The notes under the pieces were generated by a model. That model saw only the letters and a list, made by a program, of their open reading frames with translations. It did not search any database and was not told the DNA's origin. Shown here in pieces: positions 5,994 to 11,885 of a stretch of 64,000 bases of DNA. Positions within the stretch are counted from its first letter, which is position 1, and every line of letters begins with the position of its first letter. The position numbers and the translations under genes are program-made. The DNA is from Prochlorococcus sp. AG-409-J16 (lineage in GTDB: Bacteria; Cyanobacteriota; Cyanobacteriia; PCC-6307; Cyanobiaceae). The DNA lies in NCBI GenBank assembly GCA_003215655.1, contig QCKB01000001.1, forward strand, positions 62,001 to 126,000. The letters are read 5' to 3'.

Positions 5994-8495
5994 ATGAAGG
6001 TCCCAGTTTCCTGGTTAAAGGAATTAGTACCAATAACTCAAACAGTTGAGGATATTGGTGAAAGCCTTTCTATGGCTGGATTTGAAGTCGAAGGAATCGA
6101 TGATTTATCAACAAATGCCAAAGGTGTATTAGTTGGCCAGGTTAAAGAATGCTCTTCGCACCCTAATGCCGATAAATTGAGCGTCTGTTTGGTAAATATT
6201 GCACCAGGCAAAGATTTACAGATAGTATGTGGAGCTCCAAATGTTCGGAAAGGTATACATGTCGCAGTAGCCACAGTGGGCTGCGAACTTAATGCTATAA
6301 ACCTAAAAATAAAGGAAACTCAACTCCGTGGCGTATTAAGTCAAGGAATGATCTGCTCATTAAATGAATTAGGTATTGAAGGTAAAACAAATGGAATAGC
6401 AATATTGGAAGAAATCTCATCAAAAGAATTAGTCCCTGGAGCTTCTGTTATTGAATTATTAGATCTAGATGATCAGATCCTCGACCTTGCTATCACAGCA
6501 AACAGACCAGATGGAATGTCCATGGTTGGCATAGCGCAAGAAGTTTCTGCCCTTACAAGCATTAAGTTAAAAATCCCACATATAGAAAATAATGATAAAT
6601 ATAAAGAGTTAGAAACCAATATCGATAGTATTAATAAGATGAAAGAAGGGGGTATCTATTCCATAACATCAATAGAAGGAATTGATTGTAATAAGCCAAC
6701 ACCACCCATAATTAAAAATAGACTGCAGAAATGTGGTATAAACTCATTGAATATCATAGTAGATATCACAAATTATATAATGATGGAACAAGGGCAACCA
6801 CTCCATGCATTTGACAACGAAGCGTTAGAGAGAATAACCAAAAAACCAATTAGAGCAGAAGACTTTGGATTAAGACAAGCTAATGAAGCAGAGACGATTA
6901 ATACACTTGATGGTAAGGAAGTTAAGCTCTCTAATGAAGTACTAGTTGTAACCTGTCATAACACCCCAATTGCTATAGCAGGTGTTATTGGTAGTAAAGA
7001 AAGTGCAGTAACCTCCAATACAAAAAAAGTATGGTTAGAATCTGCTGTATTTACTCAAAAAGCAGTAAGACAAAGTTCTCGATTGGTTGGTTTGAGGACA
7101 GAAGCTAGTAGCAGATTCGAGAAAGGTATCCCTATTCAAAATACTCTGAGAGCATCTAAAAGGGCTATAGATTTGATTAATGAACAATTTGGATCTACAA
7201 AAATAATTACATATGCTACAAAGACAACTATAGAAGAAGAAGCAACGGTAACACTTAGAAGAAACGCTATACATAAACTACTAGGGCCTATAGAAAATCA
7301 CAACAAAAAACCTGAACTAGATATTTCAAATCAATATAATAAATTAGATTATGAAGTTAATGAAGAAGAATCATATATCACAGATAAACAAATCGAAGAC
7401 ATATTGATATCACTTGGATGTTCTATAAAGCAGAAAGAAACTGGTTGGGATGTTTACATACCCTTTAATAGACAAAGTGATTTGTTAAGAGAGGTCGACT
7501 TAATAGAAGAAGTAGCAAGATTAATAGGATATAATCTATTTCAATCAAGGCTTCCTGACCCATTAGACCCTGGTGGACTATCCCCAAAACAGCAATGTGA
7601 GAGAAAATTAAGGCAATCATTAGCTCAATCAGGTCTTCAAGAAGTAACAACGTCATCTCTAGTTGGTCCAAATGTAGAAAGCTCTCGCGTGGCTATTAAG
7701 AATCCATTGCTTGTTGAAACTAGCCACCTAAGAACTAATTTATATGAAGAACATCTAAGAATTTGTCAACGGAATATAAAGGCTTTTCAGTCGGGGTGTT
7801 GGATATATGAAATTGGTAAATCCTATATACAACAAAAGACTGGTATCAAAGAAGTAAATAATCTATCTGGTGTTATATGTGGTGAACGTAGACTCGAACA
7901 ATGGTCATCATCTGGCAAATTAAAACCTCTTGATTATTATGAAGCTAGAGGCCTACTCGAGAGAACATTTAGATATCTAAATATAGAGGTAAAAGACTTA
8001 CCGATGAAGGATAGTATTAATCTTCATCCTGGTAGGGCCGCACAACTACATATAGAAGGTAAAAATAGTGGATCCTTTGGGCAACTACATCCAGCAATTG
8101 CTGATGAAATGCAATTACCTAGGTCTACATATATATATGAATTGAACTTAGATCAATTAGTAAATGCATCAATAAGACCTAATAAATTAAATCCGCTCTT
8201 CAAATCATTCACAACACTGCCACCAATGGAAAGAGATATTGCTATACAATTGCCGATTAATATTTCTTGCTCTGAAGTTCTAAATAAAATTAAAAAATCA
8301 GGTAAACCATTACTAGAAAAAGTGAGCCTAATAGATAAATTTAAATCGAGTGAATTAGGAGAAGATAACTGTAGTCTTACATTTAGGTTGACATTCAGAT
8401 CAACAGAAAAAACATTAAACGAAGCATCTATATTACCTATACAAGAGAAAATATTGAATGACCTTATTACAACATATGGAGCAAAACAACGTTAA
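5994..8495 (+). CDS. pheT: Phenylalanyl-tRNA synthetase beta subunit
   Basis: The 833-residue protein is the large subunit of the alpha2-beta2 PheRS. An EMAPII-like tRNA-binding domain (GVLVGQVKECSSHPNADKLSVC) begins near residue 43. The B3/B4 editing domain follows, with LNIIVDITNYIMMEQGQPLHAFD near residues 252-274. The central B5 domain contains LIEEVARLIGYN. The C-terminal FDX-ACB anticodon domain includes FKSFTTLPPMERDIAIQLP. The length is normal. The gene is separate from pheS, which is not in the window. Its stop codon overlaps the convergent rlmD stop by 4 bp. Confidence 0.97.
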   Translation: MKVPVSWLKELVPITQTVEDIGESLSMAGFEVEGIDDLSTNAKGVLVGQVKECSSHPNADKLSVCLVNIAPGKDLQIVCGAPNVRKGIHVAVATVGCELNAINLKIKETQLRGVLSQGMICSLNELGIEGKTNGIAILEEISSKELVPGASVIELLDLDDQILDLAITANRPDGMSMVGIAQEVSALTSIKLKIPHIENNDKYKELETNIDSINKMKEGGIYSITSIEGIDCNKPTPPIIKNRLQKCGINSLNIIVDITNYIMMEQGQPLHAFDNEALERITKKPIRAEDFGLRQANEAETINTLDGKEVKLSNEVLVVTCHNTPIAIAGVIGSKESAVTSNTKKVWLESAVFTQKAVRQSSRLVGLRTEASSRFEKGIPIQNTLRASKRAIDLINEQFGSTKIITYATKTTIEEEATVTLRRNAIHKLLGPIENHNKKPELDISNQYNKLDYEVNEEESYITDKQIEDILISLGCSIKQKETGWDVYIPFNRQSDLLREVDLIEEVARLIGYNLFQSRLPDPLDPGGLSPKQQCERKLRQSLAQSGLQEVTTSSLVGPNVESSRVAIKNPLLVETSHLRTNLYEEHLRICQRNIKAFQSGCWIYEIGKSYIQQKTGIKEVNNLSGVICGERRLEQWSSSGKLKPLDYYEARGLLERTFRYLNIEVKDLPMKDSINLHPGRAAQLHIEGKNSGSFGQLHPAIADEMQLPRSTYIYELNLDQLVNASIRPNKLNPLFKSFTTLPPMERDIAIQLPINISCSEVLNKIKKSGKPLLEKVSLIDKFKSSELGEDNCSLTFRLTFRSTEKTLNEASILPIQEKILNDLITTYGAKQR

Positions 8496-9865
8496 GCATT
8501 ATATTCTAGAAGAACCAAGGTTTCCAAATGAGTAGTTTGGGGAAAGAATTCGATAGGAATAATGCGCACAATACGATAATAATTCCTTGAATTTACTATT
8601 ATATTTAAATCTCTAGCTAGAGTAGCTTTATCACAACTGAGATATGCAATTAATTTTGGTTTAATTTCGAGTATAGAGTCTATAATTTCTTTATCTAATC
8701 CTTTCCGCGGCGGATCAACAACTAATGCATCACATTCTGATAGTTTTTCCTTTAAAATATTTTTTACATCAGTACAATAAAACTGTGTCTGTATTCCATT
8801 ATTCTTTGAGTTTTGCTTGGCAATTTCTATAGATGACTTATTAATATCTATACCTGTGACTTTAATGCCACAGTTTGCTATTGGAAGTGAAATAGAACCT
8901 ATACCACAATAGCAATCTAGCAAACTTTTAATGTTATTTTTTACTAACCAATCTCTAATAATAATTACTACCTTTTCAGCCTCTTTTGTATTTATCTGGA
9001 AAAAAGAAGTTGATGTTATTCTTAGAGTAAGTTCACAAAATATTTCCTCTAGGTAAGGGTTACCATATAAGCTTATGGTTTTGGGACCTAATATTATATT
9101 ATTTCGTTGCTGCTGAATATTTACAGAAACTCCTGTTATGGTATCAAAGGTATTGTAGAGTTCTGAAGATAATTCATTTAATTTACTATAATTAAGAGAA
9201 CTAGATACAAATGTAACTAGACTTGATTCCATTGTTGAAGTACGTATTATTACATGCCTTAGGCCTTCACTATCAGAAGTCTCTGAATATATTGGAATCT
9301 CTAATAAGCTAATTTTATCTCTTATGAAAGGTATAATATAGTTTATCTGAGTTATAAGAACTGGACAACTGTATAAATTAACTATTTGGTGAGTTCCATA
9401 TTTATAGTAACCAAATTTTATTACTCCATCATTTGATTTTGACACCGGTATAATCGCTTTATTTCGGTAGCCCATTTGATTACTTGGACTATAAATAATT
9501 TGATCTACTTCATGTTTTATGTTTCCTATTCGTTTGAGACTATCATCTAATTGCTTAAGTTTAATGTCACGTTGAAAATCTTCTGTGCAATGCTGAAGAT
9601 TACAACCACCACATTTACTTGCAATAATACATGGCTCATTTCTTCTATATTTACTAGTCTCTTTAATTTCTTGAACTGAAGCTAACCATTGTGAGCCAAT
9701 TCTACGTATAAACATTATTTCTGCGGTCTCTCCTGGCAATAAGCCAGGTAATACCAAAACCCAATTATTCCACCTCGCCAATCCGCGACCTTGCTTGTCA
9801 AGGTCATGGCAAATGACTTGGGCCTTATTGCCTGGCCTAGGTTTATCTAGAGTCTTTGGCTGCAT
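8492..9865 (-). CDS. rlmD: 23S rRNA (uracil-5-)-methyltransferase, RlmD/RumA type
   Basis: The 457-residue class I SAM methyltransferase makes m5U in 23S rRNA; whether the target is U1939 or another site is not shown. An N-terminal TRAM domain (residues 10-65) is followed by iron-sulfur cysteines in CIIASKCGGCNLQHC. The methyltransferase core has SLLDCYCGIGSISLP as the SAM motif, VVDPPRKGLD and the catalytic-cysteine motif LSCDKATLARDL. RlmD and related RumA paralogues are hard to separate by sequence alone, so the gene symbol is the less certain part. Confidence 0.88.
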   Translation of the reverse strand: MQPKTLDKPRPGNKAQVICHDLDKQGRGLARWNNWVLVLPGLLPGETAEIMFIRRIGSQWLASVQEIKETSKYRRNEPCIIASKCGGCNLQHCTEDFQRDIKLKQLDDSLKRIGNIKHEVDQIIYSPSNQMGYRNKAIIPVSKSNDGVIKFGYYKYGTHQIVNLYSCPVLITQINYIIPFIRDKISLLEIPIYSETSDSEGLRHVIIRTSTMESSLVTFVSSSLNYSKLNELSSELYNTFDTITGVSVNIQQQRNNIILGPKTISLYGNPYLEEIFCELTLRITSTSFFQINTKEAEKVVIIIRDWLVKNNIKSLLDCYCGIGSISLPIANCGIKVTGIDINKSSIEIAKQNSKNNGIQTQFYCTDVKNILKEKLSECDALVVDPPRKGLDKEIIDSILEIKPKLIAYLSCDKATLARDLNIIVNSRNYYRIVRIIPIEFFPQTTHLETLVLLEYNA

Positions 9866-10513
9866 TCAAAAAATTATAATTCCGTTAGCTTAAAGAAGTC
9901 AGAAAAATGTGTATCACTAGTCTTACTACAGACTCATGGAGAGTCTACTAATGCGACTCGCGTAAGAAGATTGATAGCAAGTCTCGTTTGGATTCTAAAT
10001 ATATCTTTTCAAGAATGTTCTGAGGGGATTATTTAAAGCTCATATTTATTAGGACTCAGTAAGGCCCATATGAATTAGGAAGTAAAAATCTAATCTTACC
10101 TTTCTCGTCTAGGACCCAGAACTAGTCTAATTATATGTTTAACATGAGACTGTTGATAAAGCTTTCGGAAGTAACTATTTGGCTTTTTGTTTGGATTTAA
10201 TACTTTTAGCTTAGCGTAACTGTCTATATAGCAGGTACTCAAACCTCGAAACATAGATTGCAACTAGCGCCTAAAGGTTTAAAAAAGTTCTGGACAATCA
10301 CTGGACAATAAGCCGCTAAAACTTATGGATTAAATGACGATATGCATGACCCAAGAGAACTCTCATGGAGTGCAAATTAAATTAAAGAAAAAATGCTTTA
10401 AAAATAGTAATTCGATTTTTGTTTTCCTATTAAATTAAATCCTGACTCCTACTTCGAAGAATAGGGATTTAGCTTGTAATTTCTACCTGAGGTCTTGACA
10501 TGGTTGGTCCTAT
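9866..10513. other. Gene-free AT-rich stretch
   Basis: No convincing coding region is visible on either strand in about 650 bases between rlmD and the decayed J-domain copy. The sequence is broken by frequent stops. One short open stretch on the plus strand near 10261-10310 reads QLAPKGLKKFWTITGQ, and after a TAA it continues to 10377 as AAKTYGLNDDMHDPRELSW; this could be a gene remnant but cannot be identified. The segment 10105-10190 faintly resembles the 3' flank of the J-domain gene (a CTAGTCTA block followed by CATGAGACT), which may mark an older duplication. No tRNA, terminator or clear promoter was seen. Confidence 0.5.
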
Positions 10514-10755
10514 AAATCTCACCTAAGACCTACAATTAGTCTTAAAATAATTCTAGAATTAGAAAGATAAGACTAGTTCTTCTAAAAATGTTCTGAAAGT
10601 GATTGGCAAGCTGCGTTGATTAGTCTCATTGAATCCTTTGAACCTCCAGAGTGGAGATGTTGGAACATGCCTATTGATCAATATGCTAAACATATTTTCA
10701 TTCAAGGTTAATTTGGCGCCTGCAATAGTTTGTAAATCTAGCAATTGAAAAGGTG
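10514..10755 (-). pseudogene. Degenerate tandem copy of the 3' end of the downstream-located RHH/J-domain gene
   Basis: This block repeats, with many substitutions, the last ~60 codons and about 50 bases of 3' flank of the gene at 10836-11885. The shift is constant at about 263-266 bp. Matching landmarks are CATTGAATCC (10627 versus 10893), TTCAAGGTTAATTTGG followed by GC(A/G)CCTGCAATAGTT, and AATTAGTCT in the 3' flank (10534 versus 10797). In the copy, an LxTIAGAKLTL peptide is still readable. After that the frame is shifted, the HPD motif of the J domain is lost and an early stop appears where the real gene reads ELYRQKN. It is a dead partial head-to-tail duplication. Confidence 0.8.
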
Positions 10756-10835
10756 AACTAATTCTTGCTGTCTTAGTTATCTCCCATAAGACGCGTAATT
10801 AGTCTATTGATGATTCTTAGGTTATATGCATGAGA

Positions 10836-11885
10836 CTAATTTTTTTGCCTGTAAAGTTCTTTAAGCAATTGGTATGCTTCGTTGATTCGTCGCATTGAAT
10901 CCGTTGAGCCTCCGGCGTCAGGATGTTGGGACATTGCTTTTGATTTATATGCTGAGCGTATTTTCTTCAAGGTTAATTTGGCACCTGCAATAGTTGGTAA
11001 GTCGAGTAATTGAAGAGCTCCATGCACAGTCATTGTCGACTCAAGTGTTTGAAATGATGTCACGTTTTTACTTCTTCTAAATCGATTAACGAAACGTCTA
11101 ATCAAGGTGGGGATTCTATCTGGCAAACTTCTAGTAGCAAATGGATCTTCTAATACACCTGCTATAACAATTACTCTTTCAAATGAAGGTGATTCTTGAG
11201 ACCATGCTGGACAATATTGTTTCATATATCTATTAGCCTCAGTCCACGTAAATGTTCGTCCATCTGTCTCATTAATATGTATCCATATATCCCTAGCTAG
11301 CCATGTCATTGCAGCCTCAATCACTGTTTCTCCAGGCTCTTGTCCATATAGTGATTGCCAGTGCTTTTTTGCTGTATCTATACTTTCCTTTATATGAATA
11401 CTGCTAACAGTTGTTACTAGAGGCTGTGCTTCCGAGCTTTGATTAAATTGTTTGTTACCTAGACTTTCTCTTAGACTTACTGTATTTCTTCTTACGAAGC
11501 CTGGTAAATTGATTCCAGGCTTTGTAGTTGGAGCAGAATACTTCTCATTCTGCAATTCTTCTAAGTTAGGATTTCCTTGACCTAAGGAAATACCACTATC
11601 ATTTGCCTTGCTGATTAATACTAATGCTGTAGTTTCATCATAAAATGATTTATCTAAATTTGATTTATCCTCTTTTTTGTTATCTATTAACTGTGTATTA
11701 TCTAGATCTGATATTTTTTCATCATCGCTATCTTCCCCTTCTAGAATAACCTCTAGCAATCTTCTTAGCACAGCACCTCTTGCTCTTAGACCCCATTCCT
11801 TTTTTAATTGGTCAAACTTTTCAATTAAATGATTTGGCAAATCAACCGATATCCTTCGAGTTCCTTCTATGTCAGAGGATTTCAC
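10836..11885 (-). CDS. Ribbon-helix-helix-like / J-domain fusion protein
   Basis: The 349-residue protein starts with RRISVDLPNHLIEKFDQLKKEWG and ARGAVLRRLLEVIL (residues 9-48), the layout of a ribbon-helix-helix DNA-binding segment. A low-complexity acidic linker (50-150) and a globular middle region (165-270, with WLARDIWIHINETDGRTFTWTEANRYM) follow. It ends in a minimal J domain (about 295-349) with KIRSAYKSKAMSQHPDAGG and RRINEAYQLLKELY, so the HPD motif that stimulates DnaK ATPase is intact. No Gly/Phe or zinc region is present, so this is a class C J protein. The start is GTG. It may bring a DnaK partner to DNA or to a repressor complex; that role is inferred. Confidence 0.7.
   Translation of the reverse strand: MKSSDIEGTRRISVDLPNHLIEKFDQLKKEWGLRARGAVLRRLLEVILEGEDSDDEKISDLDNTQLIDNKKEDKSNLDKSFYDETTALVLISKANDSGISLGQGNPNLEELQNEKYSAPTTKPGINLPGFVRRNTVSLRESLGNKQFNQSSEAQPLVTTVSSIHIKESIDTAKKHWQSLYGQEPGETVIEAAMTWLARDIWIHINETDGRTFTWTEANRYMKQYCPAWSQESPSFERVIVIAGVLEDPFATRSLPDRIPTLIRRFVNRFRRSKNVTSFQTLESTMTVHGALQLLDLPTIAGAKLTLKKIRSAYKSKAMSQHPDAGGSTDSMRRINEAYQLLKELYRQKN

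Follow-up and report, generated by a model that had tools for sequence, protein, structure and literature searches.

The window, a stretch of 64,000 nucleotides from Prochlorococcus sp. AG-409-J16, carries a gene for a protein with RHH and J domains (the RHH/J gene), a spacer downstream of it (9866-10835) and, on the spacer's other side, a further reading frame; the same gene order is seen in many relatives (Table 1). The RHH/J gene is conserved across the picocyanobacterial family, and the alignment of 33 orthologs revealed that the HPD motif and several residues of the RHH segment are invariant. Pfam analysis gave DnaJ at 1.7e-5, with a score of 25.3 that falls below the curated cut-off of 27.8, and a weak match to RHH_1. 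The predicted structure of the protein (mean pLDDT 72.7) contains a J domain. Fold comparison against the PDB placed residues 285-349 among J domains, the best match (Z 10.9) being to one chain of the Tim14-Tim16 complex, with 64 residues superposed at an rmsd of 1.7, while the N-terminus returned only weak RHH-type rows. On the predicted fold, the parent gene encodes a J domain, with HPD placed in a J fold, and a decayed copy of its tail, lying in the spacer, has lost this motif.

Table 1. Features of the RHH/J locus, with positions counted from the first nucleotide of the window
Feature	Position	Strand	Basis or remarks
Flanking ORF, presumably a RumA/TrmA-type RNA methyltransferase gene	8492..9865	-	across the spacer from the RHH/J gene
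Conserved palindrome, candidate dif, GAGTACCTGCTATATAGACAGTTACGC	10214..10240	-	conservation, copy number, terminus position, skew flip
Decayed tandem copy	10516..10753	-	frameshifted, HPD lost, mismatches without codon-position bias
Hairpin copy in decayed unit	10534..10578	.	stem 11 bp, one G-U
Junction between copies	10754..10778	.	alignable to neither flank: 8/25 matches each way
Parent unit of duplication	10779..11018	-	last 61 codons of RHH/J gene and 57 nt of 3' flank
3'-flank hairpin AATTAGTCT...AGACTAATT	10797..10841	.	stem 9 bp; overlaps RHH/J stop codon; T run next on + strand
RHH (N-terminal) and J-domain (C-terminal) protein gene, intact, 349 aa	10836..11885	-	ORF, Pfam, ortholog alignment, predicted fold

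The parent unit and its copy are two direct blocks, arranged head to tail and in register. Their gapped local alignment scored 177, whereas Markov-shuffled controls (n=300) averaged 21 and never exceeded 30; ungapped stretches of 113 nt and 57 nt are 77% and 86% identical, respectively. Between the blocks the shift is 263 bp where they cover the 3' flank and widens to 265-267 bp over the coding part, the variation reflecting small indels, and the landmarks CATTGAATCC, TTCAAGGTTAATTTGG and AATTAGTCT are present in both. These values bear out the earlier note, which had recognised a decaying head-to-tail duplication of the gene's 3' end with a constant shift of about 263-266 bp and had proposed the alignment of the two blocks as a check. 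That note had also spoken of repeated duplication; this description is wrong, since no third copy is detectable in 9866-10515 (scores of 20-23, inside the shuffled range) and the whole-genome search found this pair of blocks as the sole occurrence, leaving one event. An insertion associated with a tRNA was also considered and rejected, the sole tRNA of the 64-kb window being at 51 kb.

The state of the copy was elucidated by comparing it with the gene codon by codon. Mismatches amount to 8/60, 14/60 and 14/59 at codon positions 1, 2 and 3, respectively, and the copy bears two +1 insertions (10700 and 10589) and lacks four bases that correspond to 10845-10848 of the gene. The HPD motif of the gene (CATCCTGAC) corresponds to CATCTCCAC in the copy and reads HLH in the aligned frame, so that the HPD loss and frameshift noticed earlier are both confirmed. 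The even spread of mismatches over codon positions, together with the indels and the loss of HPD, indicates a copy free of coding constraint. Stops are present in all three frames of its strand. A 61-aa ORF in the copy was examined as a possible member of a known family, and Pfam gave no match. The distal copy duplicates the tail of a conserved gene in decayed, non-coding form, and the duplication by itself probably has no function.

The duplicated unit includes a hairpin at the end of the gene, and as a strict pattern this hairpin occurs in the genome only in these two copies, which rules out a dispersed AGTCT hairpin family. The gene-end hairpin and the seven T next to it (10797-10846) could, judging from the letters, terminate a transcript of the plus strand. 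It may therefore be asked whether the distal copy has been retained as a regulatory element, so that its hairpin or a plus-strand transcript would provide the parent gene with an antisense RNA or a terminator. Preservation of the stem in both copies could mean a retained role in RNA function or termination, and the uniqueness of the hairpin and the T run after it on the plus strand fit such a role. However, a hairpin common to both copies is expected anyway because the whole unit was copied, and the element is missing from relatives. The spacer gave no Rfam match to a known RNA, no promoter-like site was found on its plus strand, and its promoter-like sites are overall fewer than in shuffled sequence. 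A regulatory copy is accordingly very improbable, and of the earlier suggestion of an antisense source the T-run hairpin is the sole favouring feature. As a separate observation, AGTCT/AGACT is enriched about 5-fold in the spacer 9866-10835 (10 occurrences against 1.9 expected from the window rate), in part through the hairpin arms.

Comparison of copy number among relatives, which had also been proposed in advance, was carried out on about 70 Prochlorococcus and Synechococcus loci orthologous to this one; the tail copy is absent from them, each locus having one tail. The closest available orthologs share only ~58% protein identity, so that the duplication can be dated and placed on a lineage only coarsely. 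An independent argument is provided by the spacing between the RHH/J stop codon and the conserved palindrome, which is 595 nt in this genome and has a median of 348 nt over 48 distinct sites in relatives (337 by another measure). Subtraction of one 263-nt unit leaves 332 nt, the usual spacing of the relatives, which do not have the extra 263 nt; this dates the duplication, again coarsely, to the lineage of this genome. A recombination hot spot, as proposed in the earlier note, finds no further instance, as no other genome examined carries a duplication here, and the context of a terminus and candidate site is suggestive at most.

These observations are best explained by a single tandem duplication of ~263 bp in this genome's lineage, by which the last 61 codons and the 3' flank of the RHH/J gene would have been copied head to tail into the downstream spacer. 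The intact gene would have stayed whole, and the distal copy, as evident from its indels and mismatches, decayed without coding constraint. The abrupt end of homology inside the RHH/J gene, at ~11018, could instead suggest that the whole gene was once duplicated in tandem and that a later deletion removed the 5' part of the duplicate, and remnants of the RHH/J gene do exist in one relative (G242). Against this, one 263-bp unit accounts for the distance between gene and palindrome with nothing left over, and the spacer shows no further gene fragment, which makes a once-complete duplicate improbable; the spacing suggests that the distal copy was incomplete from the outset. The tail duplication most likely came about through replication slippage or illegitimate recombination, and microhomology at the junction is not visible because the junction is too eroded. 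The duplication is an ordinary event. It resembles the tandem-duplicated partial pseudogenes of bacteria in being a head-to-tail partial copy with a broken frame, free of coding constraint and confined to one lineage, and it shows no essential difference from them, apart from its notable position at the terminus beside a candidate dif.

The palindrome lies ~0.28-0.3 kb from the duplicate in the same spacer. DNA comparison of the spacer with relatives gave a match of 25-31 nt at ~310-320 nt downstream of the RHH/J gene, and in the ortholog flanks an inverted repeat recurs almost universally, its spacer being of constant length; nearly all relatives carry it ~350 nt past the end of the gene. Its consensus is GCRTAMCTGY-N7-RCAGKTAYGC, with arms of 10 nt and a centre of 7 nt; it may also be written with 9-nt arms, as GCRTAMCTG-N9-CAGKTAYGC, in which the spacer invariably begins with a pyrimidine and ends with a purine. 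The geometry is fixed across 48 distinct sites, 35 of them perfect palindromes, and the site of this genome pairs at 7/9 arm positions. At ≤1 mismatch the pattern is matched by 198 of the 400 family genomes, mostly once each, and a reversed control pattern gave near zero. The g18 genomes examined fail the consensus because their arms, at the same place, read near AGTACTG/CAGTACT. It was observed at these g18 loci (L175-L203) that both arms have changed together while place and spacer are kept, which suggests co-evolution with a binding protein. The palindrome is probably no RNA hairpin, a reading disfavoured by its fixed 9-nt loop, by mismatched arms in this and other genomes, and by the lack of a T run.

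Exceptions to the single copy are some g79 genomes with 2-4 matches and a few others with 2. The extra g79 palindromes examined are away from the RHH/J locus and sit in what look like genomic islands; in G195 they are found at C1:1025.8, 1036.6 and 1046.0 kb (L204/L205), roughly 10 kb apart, and in G237 at C23:17,614 (L206). In these two genomes ~430-450 nt separate the secondary palindromes from genes whose products have 538 and 536 aa, respectively. The 538-aa product scores above the Phage_integrase (PF00589) cut-off, and the 536-aa product, which has no Phage_integrase match, aligns with it by eye along its length. The nearness of the secondary palindromes to integrase-like genes supports a role of the palindrome in recombination.

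The position of the locus was evaluated in seven complete genomes, in all of which the site or gene is separated from dnaN by 0.44-0.51 of the chromosome, near the antipode. The fractions are 0.506 (G010), 0.466 (G034), 0.485 (G024), 0.481 (G031), 0.489 (G003), 0.488 (G009) and 0.445 (G023); these genomes are related and share synteny, and the values are therefore not independent. In this genome and in G010 the keto skew reverses sign no more than ~8 kb from the site. In the former it passes from +0.032 to -0.031, and its cumulative curve peaks at 80.1 kb of contig 1, where the site lies at 72.2 kb; in the latter it passes from +0.028 to -0.044, with the maximum at ~877 kb and the site at 885 kb. 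GC skew gave no clear switch. A g18 genome of 1,657,990 bp, the length of the MED4 chromosome, has its RHH/J gene at 829.6-830.6 kb and the candidate site at ~829.2 kb. The ter of MED4 is placed at 826-832 kb, and the DNA of Prochlorococcus vesicles is reported to peak around there (PMC10913375).

One PF00589 match each was found in this genome, G010 and G031. In this genome it lies at G000:C1:426335-426757 (L117), with orthologs in the relatives examined, and belongs to a divergent tyrosine recombinase of ~390 aa with the R-K-R-GH-Y residues as expected. The protein is weakly similar to the XerA, XerS and XerD models, far below their equivalog cut-offs. The site and this protein correspond to what is looked for in a dif: arms of 10 nt around a 7-nt centre, close to the ~11-bp arms and 6-8 bp centre of known sites; essentially one copy per chromosome in most matching genomes; a terminus position, at 0.44-0.51 from dnaN and with the keto-skew flip; and a host Xer-type tyrosine recombinase, represented by one divergent protein. 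The candidate arms GCRTAMCTG/CAGKTAYGC have no known likeness to those of E. coli dif. The palindrome shares with the dif sites of XerCD, XerH and XerS an inverted repeat of ~28 bp with a short centre, located at the terminus and the switch in skew and as a rule occurring once in a chromosome. It differs from them in that its arms are often perfectly symmetric, with a centre of 7 nt if the arms are taken as 10 nt, that one clear tyrosine recombinase gene is present (this genome, G010 and G031), and that the RHH/J gene invariably adjoins it, an arrangement not required of a plain dif.

This last difference raises the possibility that the palindrome is instead an operator or centromere-like site for the neighbouring RHH domain, gene and site forming one terminus module. 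The gene lies ≤1.5 kb from 35 of the 37 family sites examined, the other two loci being cut by a contig end, and a functional link is therefore possible. Binding to inverted repeats is common among RHH proteins, and Ter of E. coli is organised by one of them, MatP; this general habit and precedent lend further weight to such a module. The likeness to MatP/matS lies in an RHH protein gene and a palindrome tied to the terminus; the differences are that the candidate is usually one site per genome, not many, and that the RHH protein here bears a J domain. However, in G242 (g18, 100% complete; L209) the RHH/J gene at C1:880.1-880.6 kb is a pseudogene, with an internal deletion and only stop-bearing fragments left, whereas the palindrome at 880,986 is intact and better than most, an argument, from this one genome, against the site being there on the gene's behalf. 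Moreover, the secondary palindromes of the two g79 genomes adjoin integrase-like genes and not RHH/J. A binding site of the RHH/J protein is the chief alternative to dif and, on this evidence, rather unlikely. The dif reading is favoured with some confidence: the palindrome would be a previously unrecognised dif of Prochlorococcus and marine Synechococcus, a symmetric site of 27-29 bp acted on by the single divergent Xer-like recombinase, with related sites near integrase genes in islands of some genomes.

A survey of 2011 predicted dif in none of five cyanobacteria (PMC3025954), a paper of 2019 likewise reported no dif predicted in cyanobacteria (PMC6416890), and nothing on dif is found in PMC11753881 or PMC5101192. 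With no dif predicted for cyanobacteria in this published work, the palindrome becomes a testable candidate, a picocyanobacterial dif in a phylum that has had none predicted; the literature covered is that under open licence, and an earlier description elsewhere is possible. Taken together, it is quite likely that the locus records a single, lineage-specific duplication of a gene tail, since decayed, at the replication terminus and beside a palindrome that is most likely dif and on which one Xer-like tyrosine recombinase would act. In itself the duplication is of little consequence, and the valuable by-product of the analysis is the adjacent palindrome: since its sequence is defined, the recombinase single and the locus named, these abundant phototrophs allow dimer resolution to be tested directly.
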